DNA of 64,000 nt, from NCBI RefSeq assembly GCF_004368405.1, contig NZ_SBJH01000004.1, positions 1 to 64,000 on the forward strand, written 5' to 3'. Under the pieces are notes generated by a model. The model was not told the DNA's origin and ran no database searches. It worked only from the letters and a program-made list of their open reading frames with translations. A program made the position numbers and the translations under genes. Shown here piece by piece: positions 2,440-15,224 of the stretch (its first letter is position 1; each line of letters opens with the position of its first letter). This DNA comes from Olivibacter sp. XZL3. GTDB lineage: Bacteria; Bacteroidota; Bacteroidia; Sphingobacteriales; Sphingobacteriaceae.

Positions 2440-3882
2440 ATGCAAAAAAACACTACAAAAGCAGAAATTATAGGCATTCCTTTAAACAAGGAGATGCCAA
2501 TGCCACTATATATTCAAGTAGAACGTTATTTAACAGACTGCATCCTTGCTGGAGAATTTAAGGAAGGAACCGTTATGCCAAGTCCACGCCAGCTCGCCAA
2601 GTCCAATACCATTGCCAAGAATACGGTTTTAACAGCTTATGACCGCATGGTTGCCAAGGGATATTTAGCTAGCCAGCCGGGCAAATGTTACTATATCCGC
2701 TTTCCCGAGGGGCAACGGGCGGGTATTGAAGCAAACCTATATAAACGTTTGGAAGAAACCACACCGCAATGGAGGTATGAGTTACACCAATTGCGTCCCA
2801 AACCGGCCCCTTTGGAAGGTTTCCGATTTGGGAAACGGCCATCGGTACGCCGTGAACGGAAATTGCTTTCCCCGCCGGACTGGCTGGACAGCCGCCAGGA
2901 GGGCAGTGTGTGGGAACTGGAAACCCTCCTTGCCCAACATCTCAACAAACATTACGGAACGGCCATTAAAGCCGATAACCTCTGCCTCTTTGAAGGACAA
3001 CAACATATTTTTTCACAGGTTGCTTACCGCTTACTGGCAGGAAAAATGGCCGTGGTCATCTGTCCCTGTGATCCGTCTATCCTCTCCATCCTCGAGGAGA
3101 ACAACGTGATTACAATGTCCGTTAATCTACCCATGGATGGCACACCGCTTTACCTACGGCACGTCAATACCTTATGTAAGATGTTTCCGGTAAGTGCCAT
3201 CATTCTTGACCGGCACCTATATCACCTGACGGCCGGACTGCTGGGCAGGCAAAATCTGGACAAACTCCGTCAAATCGCCCAACGCCACCAAGTTTTATTT
3301 TTGGATCACGTCGGTGACCATGATCTCTGGTTCAGTGATGGTAAGTATCCATTGAATTCGACCTGCAACTACCCCCATACGCTACAGAGCTTTTATGTCA
3401 GCAGTTATCTGTCGCCCTTCTGTTATTTCGGGTTGATCGCCGGACCGGAATCCTATATCACGCCCCTCAAACTATCGCGACAGCATACCGCACTGCTTCC
3501 TGACGATGGATTGGTTGAATCGGCCTGCGAAGCCTTGTCCAACGGAAAGTTTCTACAGCAGCAAAAGCGACTACAGCGGGACCGGGTAGCATTGCGCGAA
3601 ATTGTCAAGCAAAGTTTAACGCAACACCTCAGCCCTTATGCCAGTTTCAGCATGTCAAGTTGCGGACTCGCCTGCTGGCTACACTTGAAGCCAACCACTG
3701 ATATTGAAACCTTCGATGCCTTGTTGCGCGAATCGGGCATACGTCTGCTATCTGCCGATCGCTATTACCTCGATTCACAGAATTCTCCTGCTTACCTCTT
3801 TGGGTTCGGCCATATGGAAATCAACGAAATTGACCCTGCTGTCAACGCCCTTCAACAGCTTTTTGACCAAATAGCCGTCTAG
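2440..3882 (+). CDS. MocR-like GntR-family transcriptional regulator
   Basis: A 480-residue regulator with an N-terminal GntR winged helix (about residues 18-90, with PLYIQVERYLTDCILAGEF, MPSPRQLAKS and KNTVLTAYDRMVAKGYL) and a long C-terminal part of the size and layout of a fold-type I aminotransferase, as in MocR/PdxR proteins. The aminotransferase part is degenerate: the region equivalent to the PLP-lysine motif (TFSKTL..G in the family) reads VSSYLSPFCYFG near residue 324, and no lysine is present in that segment. So it probably does not bind PLP by a Schiff base and may sense another ligand. It is the first complete gene left of the RiPP locus, in the same direction, 256 bp away, and could control it. 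Confidence 0.75.
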   Translation: MQKNTTKAEIIGIPLNKEMPMPLYIQVERYLTDCILAGEFKEGTVMPSPRQLAKSNTIAKNTVLTAYDRMVAKGYLASQPGKCYYIRFPEGQRAGIEANLYKRLEETTPQWRYELHQLRPKPAPLEGFRFGKRPSVRRERKLLSPPDWLDSRQEGSVWELETLLAQHLNKHYGTAIKADNLCLFEGQQHIFSQVAYRLLAGKMAVVICPCDPSILSILEENNVITMSVNLPMDGTPLYLRHVNTLCKMFPVSAIILDRHLYHLTAGLLGRQNLDKLRQIAQRHQVLFLDHVGDHDLWFSDGKYPLNSTCNYPHTLQSFYVSSYLSPFCYFGLIAGPESYITPLKLSRQHTALLPDDGLVESACEALSNGKFLQQQKRLQRDRVALREIVKQSLTQHLSPYASFSMSSCGLACWLHLKPTTDIETFDALLRESGIRLLSADRYYLDSQNSPAYLFGFGHMEINEIDPAVNALQQLFDQIAV

Positions 3883-4138
3883 GCCGTTTGTCCCCTACCC
3901 CCCCCTTCATTGTCCCTTTACCCCTTATTTATCCATTTATCCGGTTATCAGTCTATTGCCCTAGTCCGAACGTGTTATGGCAATCATTAACGGCTCTTTT
4001 TTGGTGATGAATAGGCTATTTTTCCCGTTGATCCCGATTTATTTTCCGTTCATCGATCTTATTCTCCAAAGCCCAAAATCATCATTATCCTTGTCCCTAT
4101 AGCAAAAAACAATAGGTTAAATCTTAAATGATGTTATC

Positions 4139-4330
4139 ATGAGAACAACGGTCAAAATGCAAGCACAACGACCCGTGCATGAACTTCCGAAAAAACACGC
4201 GACAACACCTCAGAACGCGAACAAAATGATCTTGGTCGATCTCCCTAAAAAGACGATCCTTAAATTACAAGAAAGGGATTATCCCGATGACGATGTAATC
4301 GGTGTACCCTCTTGCTGCTTCGACTATTAA
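4139..4330 (+). CDS. candidate RiPP precursor peptide (CCFDY C-terminus)
   Basis: A 63-residue peptide directly ahead of peptide-maturation genes, in the position of the modification target. The first half is basic and polar (leader-like). The rest contains the segment MILVDLPKKTILKLQ, which could be a recognition helix, then a core-like tail rich in acidic and hydroxyl residues: RDYPDDDVIGVPSCCFDY. Acidic side chains are acceptors and Ser/Thr/Lys donors for ATP-grasp macrocyclisation, and the paired cysteines are possible thioester or acylation sites. There is no double-glycine motif, and no bacteriocin transporter or protease is adjacent. It is 14 bp before the acyltransferase-like gene. 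No strong Shine-Dalgarno is visible, which is normal in this phylum. Function is inferred from position; the peptide matches no family I know. Confidence 0.6.
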   Translation: MRTTVKMQAQRPVHELPKKHATTPQNANKMILVDLPKKTILKLQERDYPDDDVIGVPSCCFDY

Positions 4331-4344
4331 GGATCATCCGATCA

Positions 4345-5517
4345 ATGCGAACACGCCCAAACACAAGCGCCATGGTTGAGAAAACAATAAGCACATACGA
4401 AAAGCTGGTCAGAGACCTGCAAAAAAAGACGCACCGTCTGCGGGCTGACCATCCATCCAGCAAAGACCGTATGGCTTTCCTGCGCCTCTCTGCGGCCATC
4501 TATCACCTTTGTCCAAGTAAAATTGCTGATCAGGACGGCTTTTTCCGCAAGGTTTACTACCAGGAACAGCTCGCGTTGATCGATCGCCGGACCTTGCCTG
4601 AAATCCGGCAAAAGCTCACATTCACAGGCGCACACGAACAGCTCAGGCAGGCCCATACCTGTGGAAGGATCTTGGTATCCTTCCACTATGGGTCTTTTTT
4701 TGCGTCTCTAGCAGCATTTTCGGCTTACGAGCTTCAGGTCATGGTGGGTATGGCCGGTGAAGTCTATCAGAAAATCAAGGACGACCTGGCAAGCGACGCC
4801 CGAAAATTGGCCAATCACGATGGGAGTAATTTCTCGCTCGAGCTATTGGATTTGGGCGCGCCCATGTCCATATTCCGCATGGTGCGGAAACTTCGCTCCG
4901 GTAAAGACGTTTTCCTTTTTATTGATGCCGATTCGCGGCAGCGCATTGATAAAAGCGAGCAGCGGAAAATCCGCATTCCTTTTTTGGATGGCGCTTTACT
5001 AGTCAGTAGCGGCGCTGCCTACCTCAGCTACCTCACCGGTGCCGCCATCGTTCCCATCCTGAGCCCACGCATCCCTAACGGTCAGACGCAGGTGGAATTT
5101 AAGGAATGGATTTATCCCGACACCGCTGTTGACGCAGAAACCTTTGCCGGTCAAACCATGCAGCGGCTCTTTATGTACCTCGAAAAGCAAGTGTTAAAAG
5201 ATCCCACCCAATGGGAAGGATGGCTATACATCCATAACCTGGTCGAACGGCGCAGCCAGGCCGACTGGTCATACACCGAACAGCAGACCTCCAGGGATAC
5301 CGATGAATACCGGGTCAACCAAGAACGTTATGCCTTAATTGCCGAAAAAAAAGACCACTACCTCTTTGATCGGCAGCAATACCGCATGTTATGGATACCG
5401 GAGGCACTGTTTGGGCTGCTGGACGACAAATCGCCCCAGCAAAGTGTCATTCAGGCCGATGAGCCCACCATGGACTTCCTCTTCAGGAACCAAATTTTAC
5501 TACCACAAAAATCTTAA
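4345..5517 (+). CDS. LpxL/HtrB-type acyltransferase-like protein
   Basis: About 390 residues resembling the lysophospholipid acyltransferase (LpxL/HtrB) superfamily. Visible signs are SFHYGSFFASL near residue 113, equivalent to the catalytic His motif, FLFIDADSRQ and IPFLDGALLVSSGAAYLSYLTGAAIVPI, which match the conserved order of blocks in lipid A secondary acyltransferases. The acid expected four residues after the His is not present in the usual place (HYGSFF), and there is no clear N-terminal membrane helix, so the substrate is probably not lipid A. A C-terminal extension of about 100 residues is not recognised. I chose the ATG at 4345 because upstream starts overlap the precursor. Placed between precursor and ATP-grasp gene, it may acylate the peptide; this is inference. 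Confidence 0.65.
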   Translation: MRTRPNTSAMVEKTISTYEKLVRDLQKKTHRLRADHPSSKDRMAFLRLSAAIYHLCPSKIADQDGFFRKVYYQEQLALIDRRTLPEIRQKLTFTGAHEQLRQAHTCGRILVSFHYGSFFASLAAFSAYELQVMVGMAGEVYQKIKDDLASDARKLANHDGSNFSLELLDLGAPMSIFRMVRKLRSGKDVFLFIDADSRQRIDKSEQRKIRIPFLDGALLVSSGAAYLSYLTGAAIVPILSPRIPNGQTQVEFKEWIYPDTAVDAETFAGQTMQRLFMYLEKQVLKDPTQWEGWLYIHNLVERRSQADWSYTEQQTSRDTDEYRVNQERYALIAEKKDHYLFDRQQYRMLWIPEALFGLLDDKSPQQSVIQADEPTMDFLFRNQILLPQKS

Positions 5518-5528
5518 CCCTATTTACC

Positions 5529-6527
5529 ATGATTCTCCTATTATGCACCGACATGTATGAGCAAGGCACCGATCCCGTAGTCGGATGGTTGGCCAAAAGT
5601 AAATCAAAAGTTATGCGGCTATGCCTGAAAGATCTAGTGGCCGGCCGGGCAGACCTTGAAATCAACGTACATAAGCAGCGCGTTTATCTCAATGGAATAG
5701 ACCTTTGCGAAGAAGTCAATGTCGTCTGGTTCCGCGGCTTGGAAGAAAGACACCGGGAGGCCAATCCGGAAGACCAGTTCCGCAAGATGGTCGGATTGGA
5801 TAAGACCCTGAATGATGAAGCCATGGACGTCGTGGAATACCTGTTTTACGCCCTTCGCCATAAAACATGGCTACCCCATTACGGTGCGGTGAAGCTCAAT
5901 AAACTCATCGCGTTGGAAGTTGCGGCAAAACATGGCCTGCGCATCCCGGAAACGCGGATACTCACCCGTAAAAAAAAGGTATTGGAAAGTTATAACCTTT
6001 GGCAAAATGGAATGATTACCAAGCCGATCCATCGGAATGTCCTCTACCGGGAAAACGAAAACGCCTACATTTCCTTTACCCACCGATTAGACCACGAAGA
6101 CCTTCAGGTATTGCCCTCCCGCTTTTTTGCTTCCCTGTACCAGGAATTTCTGGATGCCGAATTTGAGATCCGTGTGTTTTACCTGAACGGCAAATTTGAG
6201 GCGTTGGCGCTGATGCTCGCCCCATCCCAAGGACGAGCCATTGATAGTAAGCTGGATCGGATTGCCGGGAAAATGCGCCACGAACGGTTTGTGCTCAACG
6301 AAAAAGAATCCAGTATGCTGATCAGCTTTTTAACGGAATTGGGCCTGAACATCTGCACCATGGATATGATGTGGAAAGATGGGGAGATCGTCTTGCTGGA
6401 CGTCAATCCATTGGGACAATACTTGTTTGAATCGCAAATCAGTAACACGTACCTTGAAAAGGATATCGCCGAATGGCTTATCAGCATTGATCGCGGCATG
6501 AAAAACAACCGTTATGCATTTAGCTAA
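5529..6527 (+). CDS. gwsG: GwsG-like ATP-grasp peptide maturase
   Basis: A 332-residue ATP-grasp enzyme of the grasp-with-spasm / graspetide synthetase kind. The N-terminal domain starts MILLLCTDMYEQGTDPV and contains VVWFRGLEER. The central part has NKLIALEVAAKHGLRIPETRI, ATP-binding Lys in MITKPI and the acidic strand EFEIRVFYLNGK. The C-terminal active-site motif is LLDVNPLGQY, with the metal-binding Asp and Asn near residues 291-293. Family members activate Asp/Glu side chains and form lactone or lactam bridges with Ser, Thr or Lys of a precursor. It sits 12 bp after the acyltransferase-like gene, and its 3' end overlaps the next ORF by 14 bases, so the genes are translationally linked. 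Confidence 0.85.
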   Translation: MILLLCTDMYEQGTDPVVGWLAKSKSKVMRLCLKDLVAGRADLEINVHKQRVYLNGIDLCEEVNVVWFRGLEERHREANPEDQFRKMVGLDKTLNDEAMDVVEYLFYALRHKTWLPHYGAVKLNKLIALEVAAKHGLRIPETRILTRKKKVLESYNLWQNGMITKPIHRNVLYRENENAYISFTHRLDHEDLQVLPSRFFASLYQEFLDAEFEIRVFYLNGKFEALALMLAPSQGRAIDSKLDRIAGKMRHERFVLNEKESSMLISFLTELGLNICTMDMMWKDGEIVLLDVNPLGQYLFESQISNTYLEKDIAEWLISIDRGMKNNRYAFS

Positions 6528-6723
6528 AGAACTCCCCTCTTACCTTACCACCGAGCGACTGGCCGATTGCCCGGCATTTTTCCGCTTTCTGACACGCGTT
6601 CCGATCAGCGGCTTCCCGGAACTTTATGCCCAGACGTACCTAACGTTTAAACGTAGTGGTGGTTATGGACTCCATACCGGGCTCGGTAAAAAACCCATCA
6701 GTCATCTGGTCGTACATGAATAA
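6514..6723 (+). CDS. 69-residue overlapping ORF between gwsG and gwsS
   Basis: This short frame starts inside the end of the ATP-grasp gene (ATG at 6514) and ends just after the ATG of the SPASM gene (stop 6721-6723), an arrangement typical of translational coupling. The product is a soluble-looking basic peptide with LTTERLADCPAFFRFLTRVP and a glycine-rich stretch near the end. I recognise no family. It could be a small docking or recognition protein, a second peptide substrate, or a remnant of an N-terminal extension of the SPASM protein. The perfect tiling of start and stop codons is the reason for calling it. Confidence 0.5.
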   Translation: MHLAKELPSYLTTERLADCPAFFRFLTRVPISGFPELYAQTYLTFKRSGGYGLHTGLGKKPISHLVVHE

Positions 6724-7687
6724 GCAACCCAACGAAACGCGATTCCGGCTCCATGGTGATGTCGTTGCCGTTCGCGGGAAACGATGCAGCGCCCTATACA
6801 ATTTCCATACCGGTAGCCTGTCCCTGATCGACCATGCATTTCACGACGCGATCAATTACCTGCAACGCGTGCCTTATGCTCAGGTAAGCCCACAGCACCT
6901 GGACTTTCTGCCCCCCTTGCTGGACGGTGAATTCGGGTACCTGACCAACAACCATGAGCGGTTCCAGCCCATCCCACTGGAACACCATCCCTTGGACGCC
7001 ATCCAACATGCACTTGTTGAATACCATGACGGTATGGAAGCATACGACCCGACCGAACTATTGGGCGAACTTGACGTCCTGGGGTGTCAGCACCTGGAAC
7101 TTCGTTTGCACACTGATGCGACGGGCACCGAAGTTCTGAACCGCCTGACGCAATGGCTGGCCAACCTTACATTTTCTTCGATCCACCTGGTATTATCCTA
7201 TCGGGAAGCCATGGACACGGCGCAGCTCTTTGAACGTATACCCGCCTTAAGCCGGATCACCTTCCGCAACGCACCACAAGAAGGGAAGGATTCTCATGGC
7301 AGGCGGCAGCTTTATTACCAGCGTGGCCCCATGGATCCCATTGGTTATGTCCCCCAATTGCTCCGTATTGTATCGCGCCGGTTTTACAGTGAAGCTCTGC
7401 AATTTAATCCCTACTACCACCGCCGAATCGCCATCGATCGATGGGGGTATATCCGCCATGACCTAGGACATCACCTGGAATATGGGCACATCCACGAATG
7501 CTCCATCCAGCAGGTATATAACAGCCCGACATTCCGTGAGTGCTGGACCGCCAATGCCGACCGGATCGAGGAACTTCAGGACGATCCCTGCCGCTATGCC
7601 ATCCATCCGATGGTTCCCTTAACCCTTGATCGTCAGCGAAACCTATATACGTTTGAAGGTTATATGTCTAATTATCAATTTTATTAA
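6716..7687 (+). CDS. gwsS: GwsS-like SPASM protein with degenerate cysteine set
   Basis: A 323-residue protein in the place of the grasp-with-spasm SPASM-domain maturase. The N-terminal two thirds (RFRLHGDVVAVRGKRCSALYNF...) lack a radical SAM CxxxCxxC motif, as usual for GwsS. The C-terminal domain has the SPASM layout NPYYHRRIAIDRWGYIRHDLG, YGHIHECSIQQVYNSP, F.ECW and ELQDDPCRY, but most of the Fe-S cysteines expected in the family are replaced, largely by His, Tyr or Asp, leaving only scattered ones such as the Cys in DPCRY. It therefore probably cannot hold two 4Fe-4S clusters and may serve as a peptide-binding scaffold. The ATG at 6716 overlaps the preceding stop. Confidence 0.75.
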   Translation: MNKQPNETRFRLHGDVVAVRGKRCSALYNFHTGSLSLIDHAFHDAINYLQRVPYAQVSPQHLDFLPPLLDGEFGYLTNNHERFQPIPLEHHPLDAIQHALVEYHDGMEAYDPTELLGELDVLGCQHLELRLHTDATGTEVLNRLTQWLANLTFSSIHLVLSYREAMDTAQLFERIPALSRITFRNAPQEGKDSHGRRQLYYQRGPMDPIGYVPQLLRIVSRRFYSEALQFNPYYHRRIAIDRWGYIRHDLGHHLEYGHIHECSIQQVYNSPTFRECWTANADRIEELQDDPCRYAIHPMVPLTLDRQRNLYTFEGYMSNYQFY

Positions 7688-7764: not shown

Positions 7765-8847
7765 ATGGGAATAATGGATAACTACAGATACTACATCAAA
7801 GCGGGTATTAGCCGTTGGGACTTCTTTACTATTTTCGTATACTGGTTGATCGTTGCACCTGCCATCTATTTTTACAATACCCGCTCCGGGCAACAATTCG
7901 AACCTGGCCAATATCTACCTCTCCTTTTGCTCACCATCCTGATGGACACCCTGATTGTTATTGCGCTGGTTTTTTACGTACCCCAACTCTGGTACGCTGG
8001 GACCAAATGGAATTCGCTTTCCCGTGTCGGCGCCATAGCGCTATTGCTGCTGGCCATCGGAGGATTTGGGTTGGTGTATATGATGGCCTACCGAAAGCTG
8101 TATTACGGTTTTTATGTATTGAGCTGGGGTGCCTGGATTGGCGGCATTGTGCAGCATGTCCGAAGTTACGGGCTGCTGTTTGTCATCACTTATTTCCGAA
8201 AATCGCAAGCGGACAAAAACATGTTACTGCGGACCATCCTGGACAAAGAACGGGAAGAGAGAAAAAAGTTACGCAACCGGATCAGCCCCCATTTTCTGGT
8301 TAATTCCCTGAACGGCATTCAGCCGAGTTGGGTGGCCGATGCGGGCAAACCCTACATGGATAAACTCATGGACCTGATGACGTATTTTACCTATTCGACA
8401 AGTAAGGATGCGATTTCCCAGGAAGAAGAAATCCGGTTTATCCAGACCTACCTTGATCTGATGGACTCTGGCCTTCCCTACCCCGAAAACCTTGACGTCC
8501 GTATATTCGTCCATGAAAAAGACCATTGGATCACACCGGGTATCTTGGTGCAACTCCTCGAAAACGTATTCAAACATGGCACTAAAGGGCCCAACGATCG
8601 CATAGCCGTAGAGCTGACCATTGACGACAGGCAGCTTTTTTTTATGCTTGAAAACGCCATCGTTGGCAACACCATCCCGGCAAAGACCGGTGCGGGCATG
8701 GAAATCGCTCAACGACTCTTAGCCCTGCATTACCCGAAGAATCATCGGTTAAATCAATTTATAGAACACGGGAAATACCATGTCCACCTGGTATTGAACC
8801 TGAAAAATTTTATACATGAAGGAAAAGATCAGCGTCCTGATCATTGA
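7765..8847 (+). CDS. LytS-type sensor histidine kinase
   Basis: A 360-residue membrane kinase. About five hydrophobic segments fill residues 18-155. They are followed by a short coiled region (DKEREERKKLRNR) and the His-kinase domain of the LytS/YehU type: RISPHFLVNSLNG with the phospho-acceptor His near residue 176, and the N-box VQLLENVFKHG with Asn near 267. The usual G-boxes are short. The gene follows gwsS by 77 bp and overlaps the response regulator by 32 bases, so the pair is co-translated. It likely senses a membrane or extracellular signal, perhaps the mature peptide, and controls the locus. Confidence 0.85.
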   Translation: MGIMDNYRYYIKAGISRWDFFTIFVYWLIVAPAIYFYNTRSGQQFEPGQYLPLLLLTILMDTLIVIALVFYVPQLWYAGTKWNSLSRVGAIALLLLAIGGFGLVYMMAYRKLYYGFYVLSWGAWIGGIVQHVRSYGLLFVITYFRKSQADKNMLLRTILDKEREERKKLRNRISPHFLVNSLNGIQPSWVADAGKPYMDKLMDLMTYFTYSTSKDAISQEEEIRFIQTYLDLMDSGLPYPENLDVRIFVHEKDHWITPGILVQLLENVFKHGTKGPNDRIAVELTIDDRQLFFMLENAIVGNTIPAKTGAGMEIAQRLLALHYPKNHRLNQFIEHGKYHVHLVLNLKNFIHEGKDQRPDH

Positions 8848-9580
8848 AGATCACCGATTGGAGATGGACCGGCTGGTGTCCATTTTGAGCGAGATTATTT
8901 TTGTTCAAATTGTCGGTATGTTCTACAATCCCATCCATGCGCTCGATAAAATACGCAGCGAAAAGGTAGACTTGATTATAACCGACGTGGAAATGCCGGA
9001 CTTGGACGGACTGAGTGTCATCCGTAGCTTAGGCAAGCGGTTTCAATTTATCATTATATCCGGTTACCCGGACTATGCGGTAGACGGATTCGACCTGGAT
9101 GTGGTGGATTATATCTTAAAGCCGGTGACGAAGGAACGGCTACTCACAGCCTTGTTTAAATTTGTGGAGAAGCAAAAGCGGGAGGAACTGCGTACAGAGG
9201 TGAGGGAATTGATGGGCACCCAGGAAGAGAAAGAAATCAAACCTTTGGAAGACCATGCGGCCTCCCGGTTTCTGATCAGCGTGAACAACCGAATCATATC
9301 GGTGCCGTATCAAGACATCATCTACTGTAAGTCAGATGGGGATTACCTAACGGTAGTTACGCTGACCAAGCGCCATATCATGAAAATGACGATCAGCCGT
9401 TGTGAGGAGAAATTACGGTTCCATGGCTTTATGCGGGTGCATAAATCCTATATATTCAACACGGCGTTCCTGGGGGATGTGGAACGCTACAAAATCAAAC
9501 TTACCAATGGAGAAACCATCCCCGTTGGGAAGTCCTTTTGGAAAACACTACGAGACAACCTGAAAGGGATGGTTAAATAA
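8816..9580 (+). CDS. LytTR-family response regulator
   Basis: A 254-residue regulator with an N-terminal receiver domain (acidic pocket in IIEDHR, phospho-acceptor Asp57 in ITDVEMPDLDG, conserved Lys in YILKPV) and a C-terminal LytTR DNA-binding domain (about 150-250, with FLISVNNRIISVPYQDIIYCKSDGDYL split here as FLISVNNRI and IIYCKSDGDY, then FMRVHKSYIFN and IPVGKSFW). It is the partner of the overlapping histidine kinase. LytTR proteins bind imperfect direct repeats; I could not find a convincing pair upstream of the precursor by eye. Confidence 0.9.
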   Translation: MKEKISVLIIEDHRLEMDRLVSILSEIIFVQIVGMFYNPIHALDKIRSEKVDLIITDVEMPDLDGLSVIRSLGKRFQFIIISGYPDYAVDGFDLDVVDYILKPVTKERLLTALFKFVEKQKREELRTEVRELMGTQEEKEIKPLEDHAASRFLISVNNRIISVPYQDIIYCKSDGDYLTVVTLTKRHIMKMTISRCEEKLRFHGFMRVHKSYIFNTAFLGDVERYKIKLTNGETIPVGKSFWKTLRDNLKGMVK

Positions 9581-10967: not shown

Positions 10968-11426
10968 TCATAAGGTTACTTGAACTTCATGGTATCCCTT
11001 TAGGTCAACGACACGAAGGTATATCCCTTTGGTGCCTTTGATCATAAGGATCAAAAAATCAGTTTTGAGCAAATTATTTCTGAATTGCGATTGAATCATT
11101 TTCAGATCAGTACCTGAAGGAGAAGGAAAAGGCTCTGGATGAGTGTGCCATTCTCCCAGATAAACCGTCTGACCATTGCTGTTATAGAATTCATATTCCA
11201 AAATGATCTGGGCACTGTGTTTATGGCGTTCAAAATTAAACCTCGAGCGTTTGTCCAATGAAGTCGGTACAGACAATTTGGTAATGTTCACCTGTCCTTC
11301 AATAATCTTTCCGAGTATGATTCCGCCCGCTTCAGGTAAAGCCGATTTATTCTGAGTGAACCGTTCAAGAATAGCAACGGCCTCAGCATGTAACAGTATA
11401 TCGTATCTATCTATCTTAAACTGCAT
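10968..11426 (-). CDS. cap3: Cap3, JAB/MPN isopeptidase of type II CBASS
   Basis: A 152-residue JAB-family metallopeptidase. The zinc site is visible: Glu32 in PEAGGIILG and the JAMM motif HxHx10D with His94, His96 and Asp107 in EWHTHPEPFPSPSGTD. Cap3 proteins cleave the bond that Cap2 makes between the C-terminus of the CD-NTase and its targets, and so set back activation. It is the last gene of the minus-strand operon; its start codon overlaps the cap2 stop by one base. Confidence 0.9.
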   Translation of the reverse strand: MQFKIDRYDILLHAEAVAILERFTQNKSALPEAGGIILGKIIEGQVNITKLSVPTSLDKRSRFNFERHKHSAQIILEYEFYNSNGQTVYLGEWHTHPEPFPSPSGTDLKMIQSQFRNNLLKTDFLILMIKGTKGIYLRVVDLKGYHEVQVTL

Positions 11427-13180
11427 TATAGGGTATTTATTGTTAATTGATTTGATACATTTTGTTTACCAAAATCTGAAAGCTCAAAACCTTGAGCTGC
11501 TGCAATGGATAGATCACCTGCAAAACTGAAAACCAAATTGTCTTTAGGTGGATTAGCGATGATCGAATATAAATTCGGGGCCAAATTTGCGAAAAACAGA
11601 CTGATTGCCGCTTTTCCATAGGGAACGTATGACCCCTGACAGCCCGCTTCGCGAAGTTGTGTTTGGCATTGTGGGTCTTTATAAGTTTCAGATGAAATGA
11701 TATTATAGCGGTAAAAGCCATCGTCTTCCAAATCCTTTAAAGAAAATCCGGTTGATGGATTTATGTAAAGTGCATGCCCGCCGAGCAGATAGGGTTCAAC
11801 CCAGAAAAACATCACCGGCTTTACGATTTTTCCATCATTCAGACACTGGAGTATATAGTTCTCAATGGCATCTTTTCCGATAGCACAGAAAATAACATCC
11901 ATAGTGTTCACCATCGATTGATGTTTTGAAATCAAATCAACAATTGAGCCCTGATGCTTGGTTAGATTTAAAAAAGGATTGTGATAAATCAAATACTTAG
12001 ATACCGCATCAACTTTACTGACCCCCACATCGTGAAAACTCAATAAATGGCGGTTTACGTTCTCCAAACCAAGAATATCAGGATCGCACAGTACAAAATC
12101 TGAGACCTCCAAACTATTAAGATAATGTAGGAGATTGGAGCCAATACTTCCCAATCCTGCTAGCAAAAATCTATATGGAGATTTAGAGACCGTCAGTCCA
12201 TCTGTTCGCTTATGCAGCCGGGATTGGCTAAAGTATTTGAATAGGATGCGTGCTGCCGATTTCGTTGGATATACCTTTTCAAGTACATTCAATACAGATA
12301 AAGATTTTTCCCTCCAACCGTTAATTTTCGGATTAATTGCACCCAAATAAAATCCAAAGAATAAAAGCTCGCCATCGATATTAAGGGAGAAAGAAAATAT
12401 CTTTGAATCATAAGCTTGGTTTAGATATGTTCGGATCTGAATCCATTCTGTCTCAAATTTTTTCTTCAATAAATCAATCACCCCCCTGTTGTCGTAGGAA
12501 AATGGAGGCTTCATCTCATCAATTTCTCCCAGATAGAAAAATGACTTTTCAGTAAGCTTGTGACCTCGGAAGCGAAAGAAATCAATTACTTTCTGAGACT
12601 CAAGCGTACCCGAATCCATGAAAAAATCAACATTGTGATAAGCTGGAGAAAACAGATATCCCTGATAAATACCAGGAGCGAGCGTTTCGATACCTTCACC
12701 CATATACGCTTCAAATACTTGATCTTTGCTTCCGTAGAGATTCGACCAGTAAGCAACCACTTCGTCTTTGAAATCACCCGTGTTCACTTTGTTGATCCCG
12801 TCGGCAATAATTGCACCTGCACGTTTCGAACAAGCTTTGACAATATCGGTAGGCCTTTCTGTATTAAGCTTAATGTTTTCATCATCAAACAGACAGATAT
12901 TGCGTTTATCGTCCACGTGGGGAATGTATTTGATTTCTTCATAGTCCTGTTCGGAAAGATAAATGCGGGGAAGAGAAAGTGGAAAATCTTTCTTCAGTTC
13001 CAGAAAGACAGAGAAATCTCTGACCCTATCAGAAAAGGGCACCTCCAAAACCACCTTCCATTGATCTATCTTTTGCGGGTAGCCTTCCTTTGCCTTTCTG
13101 GTTACCGTTGTTTTTTCTATAGAAAAGATTTTGGAAAGTTCCTCAAATGTCTGTTCACGCGCCTGATCGAAATCCGTCAT
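11426..13180 (-). CDS. cap2: Cap2, E2-E1 fusion of type II CBASS
   Basis: A 584-residue ubiquitin-transfer-like enzyme. The N-terminal third is an E2-like domain: PLSLPRIYL and YIPHVDDKRNICLFDD, with Cys96 the likely catalytic cysteine. The C-terminal half is an E1/ThiF adenylation domain: nucleotide-binding AGLGSIGSNL near 341-350, an acidic strand ending in LCDPDIL, ENVNRHLL, and Cys513 in EAGCQGSYVPYG as the likely E1 cysteine. Cap2 activates the C-terminus of the adjacent CD-NTase and joins it to target molecules, which primes the CD-NTase. The gene starts 4 bases after the cdnA stop. Length is normal for the two-domain, full-length form. Confidence 0.92.
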   Translation of the reverse strand: MTDFDQAREQTFEELSKIFSIEKTTVTRKAKEGYPQKIDQWKVVLEVPFSDRVRDFSVFLELKKDFPLSLPRIYLSEQDYEEIKYIPHVDDKRNICLFDDENIKLNTERPTDIVKACSKRAGAIIADGINKVNTGDFKDEVVAYWSNLYGSKDQVFEAYMGEGIETLAPGIYQGYLFSPAYHNVDFFMDSGTLESQKVIDFFRFRGHKLTEKSFFYLGEIDEMKPPFSYDNRGVIDLLKKKFETEWIQIRTYLNQAYDSKIFSFSLNIDGELLFFGFYLGAINPKINGWREKSLSVLNVLEKVYPTKSAARILFKYFSQSRLHKRTDGLTVSKSPYRFLLAGLGSIGSNLLHYLNSLEVSDFVLCDPDILGLENVNRHLLSFHDVGVSKVDAVSKYLIYHNPFLNLTKHQGSIVDLISKHQSMVNTMDVIFCAIGKDAIENYILQCLNDGKIVKPVMFFWVEPYLLGGHALYINPSTGFSLKDLEDDGFYRYNIISSETYKDPQCQTQLREAGCQGSYVPYGKAAISLFFANLAPNLYSIIANPPKDNLVFSFAGDLSIAAAQGFELSDFGKQNVSNQLTINTL

Positions 13181-13184
13181 CTAC

Positions 13185-14180
13185 TTACGCGCTTTTAGCA
13201 TTACTGGTCACTACAGCTGGTGAGCTATAGCTCTTTGCCCCTTCATCCTCATCTTTGGCGTTTGCACAGGAGAATCTCGAACCCAGATGCTTCTGCCACT
13301 TATGGCAAGCGTTCTTCGGATTGGTTTCGTTAACAGCCTGTTTTGCCGACTCTAAAAATGCGCTTAACTTGTCCATGAAGTATTGCTCATAACTATACCC
13401 ATCCATTACATCTTCGTTTTCGGGCACCGTTGGCCGCAGACATTCAAATCTCCAATTAAGCTGGTCGTAAATTTTCTGAAGGGTATCCCGAAATCCAACA
13501 TCATCCCTGGTGTTTGCACAGAAGTTATCTGCTGCCCAGATCGTCATGACAAACCCAGTCGGCATCTTTTTAGATCCATCACTGTAATTTTGATAATCGC
13601 TCCATGCTTTTAGATACTTAACAAACCGCCTCAACTGCTCATTTTCATCTGCCTGGTCATTGAACCATTGACTAAACGCTCTGGGATCACTTGGAACCCA
13701 GCCATCTTTTTTATGAGCAAGCTTCGGCTCATCGGGTTCGGCTTCATCAATGAAGTAAATGGGCTGATCAATGTGGCGGCCATCCGCAAATTTCGTTCTC
13801 ACGCACGTATTTTTATCAACGGGTGGCACACCTGTATAACCGTCAACGGCATCCCAAATCCAGTTGTGATAAGTCTGTACGCTTTTGCGCTCATCCAATG
13901 GTCCGATAAAGTAAATTCCATCATCTGTATCGTATTTGGTAATAGTTTTATCTTTCCCATCTTCTTGAACAGTGCGTGGAATGGGATTGATAGTTGTCTT
14001 CATTGCTGAAGATCCCTGAGAAGTAAACTTAGGTTTGATCTCATCTTTATGATTTTCTTTAAAATCATCTCTAATCAAGTTCCTGAGATTCGTCCGGGAT
14101 TTTTTAAGCTTCTTTTTACGGTCATCCGTTAAAGAAATCGTCGAATTGAAATCGACGAACTGATCGTGACAGTTTGCCAT
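13185..14180 (-). CDS. CD-NTase (DncV-like cyclic nucleotide synthase)
   Basis: A 331-residue cGAS/DncV-like nucleotidyltransferase. The active site is intact: GSSAMKTTI (Gly56-Ser57) and DTDDGIYF with Asp84 and Asp86, plus a third acid, Asp138, in GRHIDQPIYF. The helical C-terminal domain carries AWSDYQNY and MPTGFVMTIWAADNF as in DncV-type (clade A) proteins. On phage infection such enzymes make a cyclic di- or trinucleotide, 3',3'-cGAMP for DncV, that switches on the effector. The protein ends in a flexible tail SSPAVVTSNAKSA; a small terminal residue is what Cap2-type conjugation requires. It lies 3 bases after the patatin gene. Confidence 0.9.
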   Translation of the reverse strand: MANCHDQFVDFNSTISLTDDRKKKLKKSRTNLRNLIRDDFKENHKDEIKPKFTSQGSSAMKTTINPIPRTVQEDGKDKTITKYDTDDGIYFIGPLDERKSVQTYHNWIWDAVDGYTGVPPVDKNTCVRTKFADGRHIDQPIYFIDEAEPDEPKLAHKKDGWVPSDPRAFSQWFNDQADENEQLRRFVKYLKAWSDYQNYSDGSKKMPTGFVMTIWAADNFCANTRDDVGFRDTLQKIYDQLNWRFECLRPTVPENEDVMDGYSYEQYFMDKLSAFLESAKQAVNETNPKNACHKWQKHLGSRFSCANAKDEDEGAKSYSSPAVVTSNAKSA

Positions 14181-14183
14181 AGT

Positions 14184-15224
14184 TTAGTTGGTTTTATAAA
14201 GTTTTTGTTGTTCAAAAAAATCGGCTACCTCTGGCTTCTTCCGAAACAGGTCGCCCATATCATTTCCTTTTCCGCGGATCAAATCAAGTGCTGCCGGAGT
14301 TGCAACATCTAACTGAACCAATTCTTCCTGTGAACTGGAAACGTCCGAAGATGGAATTCTCAGGTAATCTACCGGCAGATCATTAAGCGTCGCTATTTTC
14401 TTCATGAAAAAGTCCGTAAAAAAACTCTGTCCGGCAAATGAAGTTTCAAAAAGCTCATCTTTCCAATCCAAAAAAGACCTGTGACGTTTCAACGCTGTCG
14501 GTTTTCCCCCTGTAAGTGAGAGACTACTTACAGATAGTATTTTGAGCTTATCGTATGGTTTATCCTTTCCAACAAAATACTGAAGGGCTTCCAGATATCC
14601 GACCAAAGTTGGGTTGTTTCCCCATACACCTCCGTCTATAAACTGCTTGTTGTCGTAGTACGAGATCTGTGCCATTGGGAAATAAGTAGGTGCCGCACTT
14701 GTCGCCAGCGCCACATCTACATATAATGCCTTGTTGTCACGGTTTAGATCACCTTCTTTGTGGTCAAACTTAAAGATAAAGGGCCGGGCTTCAGTAACAT
14801 TGTAACTCGGTATACACAATAGGTTATTGCTCTCGCCAATTTTTCTTTCCCCAAAAATTTTTGTAAGCGCTTCTTTAAGATTTTTGTCGGTGAACTTACC
14901 GCCATTGACCAATTGTTTGACTGTACCGTTGCTGTACTTTTTGCCCCGAAACTTTATTTTCTTAAAATTTGGGAATATTTTGGGGCCTTCATTATCATAG
15001 AAATCGCAGATATCTGAAGCAGGTATTTTGAGGGACAACGCCAGCGCAATTAAGCCTCCGGTAGATGTTCCGCAAAACATATCAAAATAATCCGATAACC
15101 GGCAATCGAATTTTTCTTCAAGGTGTCGTAATATTGTGGCACTATAAAGCCCCTTTATCCCACCTCCATCAATTGATAAGATCTTAAAAACTTTTTCATC
15201 TTTTTTAGTAGCTGTTTCCCCCAT
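14184..15224 (-). CDS. capV: CapV-type patatin phospholipase, CBASS effector
   Basis: A 346-residue patatin-like phospholipase. It shows the oxyanion motif DGGGIKG (residues 19-25), the nucleophile elbow GTSTG with Ser54, and the catalytic Asp197 in FIDGG, followed by VWGNNP. In the Vibrio cholerae capV-dncV-cap2-cap3 operon, the equivalent enzyme is activated by cyclic GMP-AMP and degrades membrane phospholipid, killing the infected cell. Gene order and content are the same here. It is the first gene of the operon. Upstream on the minus strand there is no clear TAnnTTTG box; a weak tatgtgtc lies about 40 bp before the start. Confidence 0.92.
   Translation of the reverse strand: MGETATKKDEKVFKILSIDGGGIKGLYSATILRHLEEKFDCRLSDYFDMFCGTSTGGLIALALSLKIPASDICDFYDNEGPKIFPNFKKIKFRGKKYSNGTVKQLVNGGKFTDKNLKEALTKIFGERKIGESNNLLCIPSYNVTEARPFIFKFDHKEGDLNRDNKALYVDVALATSAAPTYFPMAQISYYDNKQFIDGGVWGNNPTLVGYLEALQYFVGKDKPYDKLKILSVSSLSLTGGKPTALKRHRSFLDWKDELFETSFAGQSFFTDFFMKKIATLNDLPVDYLRIPSSDVSSSQEELVQLDVATPAALDLIRGKGNDMGDLFRKKPEVADFFEQQKLYKTN

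Follow-up and report, generated by a model that had tools for sequence, protein, structure and literature searches.

In the Agr and ComQXPA systems of quorum sensing, each cassette combines a short peptide, one modifying enzyme and a kinase with its regulator (a LytTR protein in Agr). Dedicated acyltransferases encoded together with a precursor are found among the ribosomally synthesized and post-translationally modified peptides (RiPPs). Selidamides, nostolysamides and microvionin are lipidated on lysine, ornithine or the N-terminus by enzymes with a GNAT fold (PMC13060382). In DAG-RiPPs, which have Bacteroidota examples, a cysteine of the ribosomal peptide carries the lipid. This is the N-terminal cysteine after a signal peptide, and it is lipidated by the general lipoprotein pathway (PMC12636315). 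Here, we analyze a locus of Olivibacter sp. XZL3 within the first 64,000 nucleotides of contig NZ_SBJH01000004.1 (forward strand; this whole stretch is called the window). A short peptide gene is followed there by genes for an acyltransferase with the fold of LpxL and PatA, for relatives of the grasp-with-spasm (gws) proteins GwsG and GwsS, and for a LytTR-type sensor pair. We propose, with a probability of roughly 0.55, that the locus is a member of a peptide acyltransferase cassette which makes acylated, perhaps signalling, peptides, and that this member has been joined by a divergent gws set devoid of the SPASM cysteines.

The cassette resembles the GNAT-dependent RiPPs in having a dedicated acyltransferase beside the precursor, but its enzyme has an LPLAT fold and its peptides have a conserved cysteine. 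As in DAG-RiPPs, the lipid of the proposed product would sit on a cysteine, which here is not the N-terminal one. The layout is that of Agr and ComQXPA, and peptide tails such as KCDFVIL resemble the cysteine segment of autoinducing peptides. However, a different enzyme takes the place of AgrB or ComQ, the peptides end a few residues past the cysteine, and the signalling is what we infer. The parts are ordinary while their combination is unexpected. We would class the cassette as a variant of the systems that make lipidated ribosomal peptides, with the window as a member that has acquired a divergent gws set. Among the hits listed, no description of such a cassette was found in the open-licence PMC literature, which leaves subscription papers mostly uncovered and so does not establish absence from print. 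The same literature returned nothing for the term "grasp-with-spasm" and, judged by the listing of hits, nothing on topic for graspetides combined with acyltransferases. The terms acyltransferase, Bacteroidetes, graspetide, LytTR and lipid do not occur in the main text of the RRE-Finder paper (PMC7470986; term search).

The locus comprises the following features:

4139 to 4330, plus strand: short peptide gene (63 residues, C-terminal part acidic, ending in YPDDDVIGVPSCCFDY), recognized by its open reading frame (ORF), position and cysteine tail.
4345 to 5517, plus strand: acyltransferase of the LpxL/PatA fold (390 residues; ATG at 4345, a further ATG at 4372), assigned by PF03279, a structure model and invariant residues.
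5296 to 5514, plus strand: C-terminal domain of the acyltransferase (approximately residues 318-390), recognition-element-like by fold, from a model of residues 305-390 and its Foldseek and VIA matches.
5529 to 6527, plus strand: GwsG-like ATP-grasp ligase (TIGR04192, below cut-off).
6514 to 6723, plus strand: 69-residue ORF between the GwsG-like and GwsS-like genes, overlapping both; a small, unnamed member of gws loci.
6716 to 7687, plus strand: GwsS-like protein in which the conserved SPASM cysteines are missing (TIGR04193, below cut-off).
7765 to 8847, plus strand: LytS-type membrane histidine kinase (PF06580).
8816 to 9580, plus strand: LytTR response regulator (PF04397 and PF00072).

The original prediction, made from the letters alone, had named the peptide, LpxL-like, GwsG-like and GwsS-like genes, and all four are confirmed on the plus strand by their ORFs and, where available, family matches. 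It had also described them as one tight unit. The peptide and acyltransferase genes are indeed separated by only 14 bp, and the acyltransferase and GwsG-like genes by 11 bp, but the four genes alone leave 188 bp between the GwsG stop (6527) and the GwsS ATG (6716). This gap is occupied by a fifth ORF, the overlooked one at 6514-6723, which overlaps both neighbours. The kinase and regulator pair follows 77 bp downstream of the GwsS-like gene on the same strand.

The window acyltransferase belongs to a family that is widespread outside gws loci. At E 1e-3, it matched at 128 places in 73 of 399 genomes of its own bacterial family, the weakest of which could represent ordinary lipid A enzymes. With a profile built from 11 members, matches at E 1e-15 were obtained in 7 of the 395 genomes of the class, including five copies in the genome of the window itself. 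In a second bacterial family (around genome G679), which may be the Chitinophagaceae, 65 of 200 genomes have members at 73 places. Single-sequence searches, which may miss distant relatives, gave none in PLSDB plasmids and, for viral contigs, 11 pattern matches with none confirmed. In the libraries used, enzymes of this family have matches only to general lipid-A-acyltransferase models, below equivalog cut-offs.

In most members, a short ORF is located directly upstream of the acyltransferase gene and stops a few residues past a cysteine. The tails at the other four copies in the window's genome are KCDFVIL, KCDIEIL, NKCPFEIF and DDCEYWDL, and among those found elsewhere are KCIPYEGL, RCPIFTI and KCNIVFPF. 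This pattern was quantified by an automatic rule (25-100 residues, stop between -90 and +130 bp from the enzyme start, cysteine at -4 to -12) in 78 loci, which stem from 72 of the 128 places in the window's family and from 6 of 11 in the class-wide profile search and are mostly the higher-scoring ones. Such an ORF precedes the acyltransferase in 58 of the 78 loci, as compared to 69 of 334 other genes of those loci; the Fisher test of this enrichment counts related loci as independent. By clusters of 70% identity, the numbers are 50 of 66, and 49 of 59 among the clusters with a kinase. In 25 of these 49 clusters the last cysteine occupies position -6, and in another 11 position -7. The automatic picks are wrong for L142 and L173, where a better tail is visible, and unconvincing for L119 and L170 (L numbers denote our loci).

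In the two groups tested, the peptides are under purifying selection. Among nine sequences of the first group, pN/pS (the ratio of nonsynonymous to synonymous polymorphism) falls from 0.20 in the leader to 0.04 over the last nine residues; among four of the second, it falls from 0.49 to 0.03. Selection is thus strongest in the last nine codons of both groups, and therefore at least these ORFs are genes. When 18 cassette peptides were compared with NCBIfam, no match was obtained, and Pfam gave a single match at chance level (E 0.22). In the second family, a cysteine-containing peptide precedes the enzyme in 31 of 32 loci (27 and 4 peptides, read by eye); 30 of these loci are from the 73 places there and two are from the class-wide profile search. 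One locus, L156, has two identical tandem 50-residue peptide genes with a CC pair (oriented positions 3665-3817 and 3879-4031) before the acyltransferase.

The peptide of the window has no Pfam or NCBIfam match, and that it is a gene is concluded from its position and its cysteine tail. It has a cysteine near the C-terminus like the peptides upstream of related acyltransferases, but shows no clear homology to them.

The acyltransferase itself matches PF03279 (Lip_A_acyltrans) at 35 bits (gathering cut-off 22.3, E 1.2e-8) but reaches only 17.9 bits against TIGR02207 (LpxL/HtrB; cut-off 297.8) and is far below the cut-offs of the LpxL-type equivalogs. Its model (pLDDT 82, pTM 0.81) matches PatA and LpxM at Z values of about 22. 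H114 and D194 are invariant among 17 and among 21 aligned acyltransferases and both are kept in the window enzyme. PatA uses His126 together with Glu200 from block 3; the authors who describe this suggest that HtrB and MsbB work likewise (PMC4792965). By motif order, and without residue-by-residue superposition, we read D194 as the counterpart of PatA Glu200. The enzyme thus shares fold, histidine and block-3 aspartate with PatA and LpxL/LpxM but differs from them in lacking the acid of the HX4(D/E) motif, in an additional recognition-element-like domain and in the peptide gene upstream; most of its relatives also differ by the LytTR genes alongside.

The C-terminal domain (residues 305-390) was folded alone (pLDDT 74). 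In a Foldseek search, the top eight matches are all RiPP enzymes, and several are titled as leader-peptide complexes, with a best E of 0.047. Among them are TbiB1 with leader peptide, a sactipeptide synthase, McbBCD with substrate and a lasso B1 protein with leader, the matched chains of which we take to be RiPP recognition element (RRE) domains. The individual scores are weak, and the RRE-like reading persuades by the make-up of the match list, which suggests that the domain resembles the leader-binding domains of RiPP enzymes.

These findings bear on a different explanation, in which the enzyme acts, under the control of LytTR proteins, on a membrane lipid, and the peptide, instead of being its substrate, is a small subunit or regulator of it. 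It could draw on the membership in PF03279, on the glycolipids that are the substrates of the closest folds (PatA and LpxM) and on the lost HX4D acid, whereby the activity may be altered. We regard it as improbable, given the RRE-like tail, the distance to the LpxL-type equivalogs, the cysteine tail as the most conserved part of the peptides and the few relatives that adjoin RiPP-type genes. The latter are members without a LytTR kinase (L159, L047 and L157). The weak member L159 (E 9e-17) adjoins a radical SAM/SPASM protein (TIGR04463, E 2.9e-57) and a protease of the daptide/epipeptide type, both below curated cut-offs; a protease of the same type is found at L047 (NF041824, E 7e-26, below the curated cut-off). 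At L157 (genome G715, 2933-5216), the acyltransferase gene and an arginase/agmatinase-family gene share a 14-bp overlap. This pairing is suggestive because GNAT pathways are known to yield RiPPs acylated on ornithine (PMC13060382).

Most members are associated with LytTR sensor genes. Within 5.5 kb downstream of the acyltransferase, a LytS-type kinase was found in 70 of the 78 loci and a LytTR regulator in 67, using models built from the window and from up to eight of those same loci, which match by construction. In the second family, a divergent relative of the membrane LytTR protein of L156 opposes the acyltransferase in 31 of 32 loci; one of these matches is the query's own locus, and the L156 protein is the one that was checked against Pfam, as LytTR.

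Taken as a whole, the cassette can be pictured as follows. The acyltransferase would represent a peptide-modifying LPLAT family of the Bacteroidota, with a catalytic domain of the LpxL/PatA type and a leader-binding, RRE-like domain. The C-terminal domain would hold the peptide, whose gene lies just upstream, by its N-terminal part, and the LPLAT domain would move an acyl group from acyl carrier protein or coenzyme A to the peptide, most likely onto its C-terminal cysteine. In most genomes, the acylated product would probably be a signal sensed by the adjacent LytTR proteins (kinase and regulator, or the membrane LytTR protein). In the window, the space from the acyltransferase gene to the sensor pair holds a divergent set of GwsG, small ORF and GwsS, and the peptide may for this reason also be crosslinked. 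The acylation that had been predicted for it gains support from the pairing of related acyltransferases with cysteine-tailed peptide genes in many genomes and from the RRE-like domain.

Several points weigh against the proposed cassette. Concerning the peptides, no homologue of the exact window peptide was found in the sequences searched, so that in this narrow sense the peptide gene is not conserved. The rule found no cysteine-tailed ORF in 20 of the 78 loci (that of L033 exceeds the distance limit, and the others have truncated genes or other contexts). Concerning the enzyme, the HX4(D/E) acid is missing in all 26 aligned acyltransferases, the window enzyme having F at +5, and the title of structure entry 5knk names Glu127 of LpxM as catalytic. 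We do not accept that this loss indicates a dead enzyme, since PatA works via His126 and Glu200 (PMC4792965) and H114 and D194 are both still present here. The window enzyme also sits on a long branch, with a weakly supported nearest group (57/76). As to the C-terminal domain, no Foldseek match is at E 0.001 or better. VIA places the same kind of chains on top (Z 4-6), mixed with carbamoyl transferases and NO66. A search by sequence, with a profile against PDB chains, gave only a ribosomal protein (E 0.7), and a PF05402 search of the window's own genome gave no match. In many members from the window's family, only the first half of the domain is present, and the copy on contig C49 ends before it, with its peptide 202 bp upstream. 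The arrangement with gws genes was seen a single time. Finally, the kinase pair of the window does not stand clearly nearer to those of the cassette than to others in the genome. For the kinase, the highest score is 82.4 bits within the cassette and 63.8 bits among the remaining kinases of the genome (from different programs); for the regulator, 93.6 bits for the best cassette regulator compare with 112.5 bits for another regulator of the genome. With scores that range from inconclusive to negative, we did not adopt a descent of the pair at 7765-9580 from the sensor pair of the cassette.

The gws genes of the window are divergent. GwsG scores 169.8 bits against TIGR04192 (E 8.9e-50; equivalog cut-off 230), with nearest relatives that are about 32-34% identical, and GwsS scores 73.8 bits against TIGR04193 (E 1.6e-20; equivalog cut-off 175). 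Three cysteine columns of GwsS are kept in 48 of 55 aligned sequences and are absent in seven, including that of the window. The cysteine-less clade comprises the window protein (6716-7687) and those of L054 and L174-L178. Because of the lost SPASM cysteines, these proteins probably do not bind an iron-sulphur cluster at these sites. The small ORF has counterparts of 60-90 residues, often with a KPIS-like end, such as L174 2465-2704, L083 7370-7612 and L001 1287-1472 besides 6514-6723 in the window. Under a strict test of the tail ([KR]P[IVL][ST]), they were found in 27 of 56 gws loci, and two that were tested matched no NCBIfam model. The ORF may be an undescribed third gws component. The window thus shares the GwsG-like/GwsS-like order and the small ORF between them with gws systems (TIGR04192/TIGR04193), but differs in the added acyltransferase, a different peptide, the lack of a visible exporter, the lost SPASM cysteines and enzymes below cut-off.

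According to the original prediction, the acyltransferase is a member of the gws system, and the peptide is both crosslinked and acylated, or anchored in a membrane. In such an acylated graspetide, GwsG and GwsS would crosslink Asp/Glu with Ser/Thr/Lys while the acyltransferase lipidates, resulting in one doubly modified product. The compact arrangement (gaps of 14 and 11 bp, two overlaps), the intact ATP-grasp and acyltransferase frames and the acidic peptide speak for such a product. A search for relatives of GwsG covered 395 genomes of the class (35 matching, 49 places) and 399 of the family (76 matching, 103 places), and 57 gws loci were drawn from these overlapping lists, in which weak places may represent other ATP-grasp maturases. 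When these loci were scanned with flanks of about 1.5 kb and a panel of 26 acyltransferases, none had an acyltransferase. The second gws locus of the genome (contig C67; 290 bits, over the cut-off) also has no match to the window acyltransferase within 11 kb. We therefore reject the acyltransferase as a conserved gws component; its family is far commoner away from GwsG, an outcome that the original prediction had itself named as refuting, and this half of the prediction falls. The nearest gws relatives of the window have precursors with S/T-D repeats and, by eye, C39-type exporters. Neither was seen in the window, and its peptide has, by eye, neither a GG site nor S/T-D repeats like those in the precursors at the nearest gws loci (L083, L174-L177). 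With both enzymes below equivalog cut-offs and the combination seen once, we consider an acylated graspetide of this kind rather unlikely.

It could also be argued that the locus is a chance or decaying patchwork, in which an orphan acyltransferase came to lie next to degenerate gws genes in a mobile region and no joint product results. The window proteins are on long branches, GwsS has lost its cysteines, a Mutator-family transposase is encoded upstream and CBASS genes are nearby. Every reading frame is, however, intact and tightly packed or overlapping, and the cysteine-less GwsS is common to six other loci with intact-looking precursors, which makes a patchwork quite improbable. The transposase (1154-2011, PF00872) matches profile positions 15-247 of 379. 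The CBASS set (10968-15224, minus strand) includes a cGAMP synthase and a phospholipase over NCBIfam cut-offs, an E1/E2-like fusion protein (ThiF, Prok-E2_B) and, by eye only, a JAB/Mov34-like ORF.

The relatives of the acyltransferase show some further contexts. At L042, the gene adjoins an aspartyl protease. Many cassettes (L033, L034, L035, L048-L052) are, by eye, beside SusC/SusD-like, MauE-like and Crp-like genes; for L034 alone, Pfam confirmed MauE, and cNMP_binding was below cut-off there. Cassettes with tails of the KCIPYEGL type (L036, L037, L040, L041) have conjugation-like and insertion-sequence-like genes nearby, again by eye, and may be mobile for this reason. RteC had been guessed by eye for L036:2123-3292, and is not claimed since no Pfam family was found.

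It is tempting to speculate beyond the proposed acylated-peptide cassette. The genome of the window has five distinct peptide tails. In a bolder version, which we hold as tentative, LPLAT-RRE fusions would make acylated pheromones read by the neighbouring LytTR sensors, amounting to widespread multi-channel signalling in the Bacteroidota, and the pheromone of the window would in addition be crosslinked. If the cassette functions as proposed, a lipid A acyltransferase fold would have been turned into a leader-guided peptide acyltransferase, and lipidation would follow a route other than that of the GNATs (PMC13060382) or the lipoprotein pathway (PMC12636315). The recurrent link to LytTR proteins would then provide a concrete and testable candidate for peptide signalling in the Bacteroidota.

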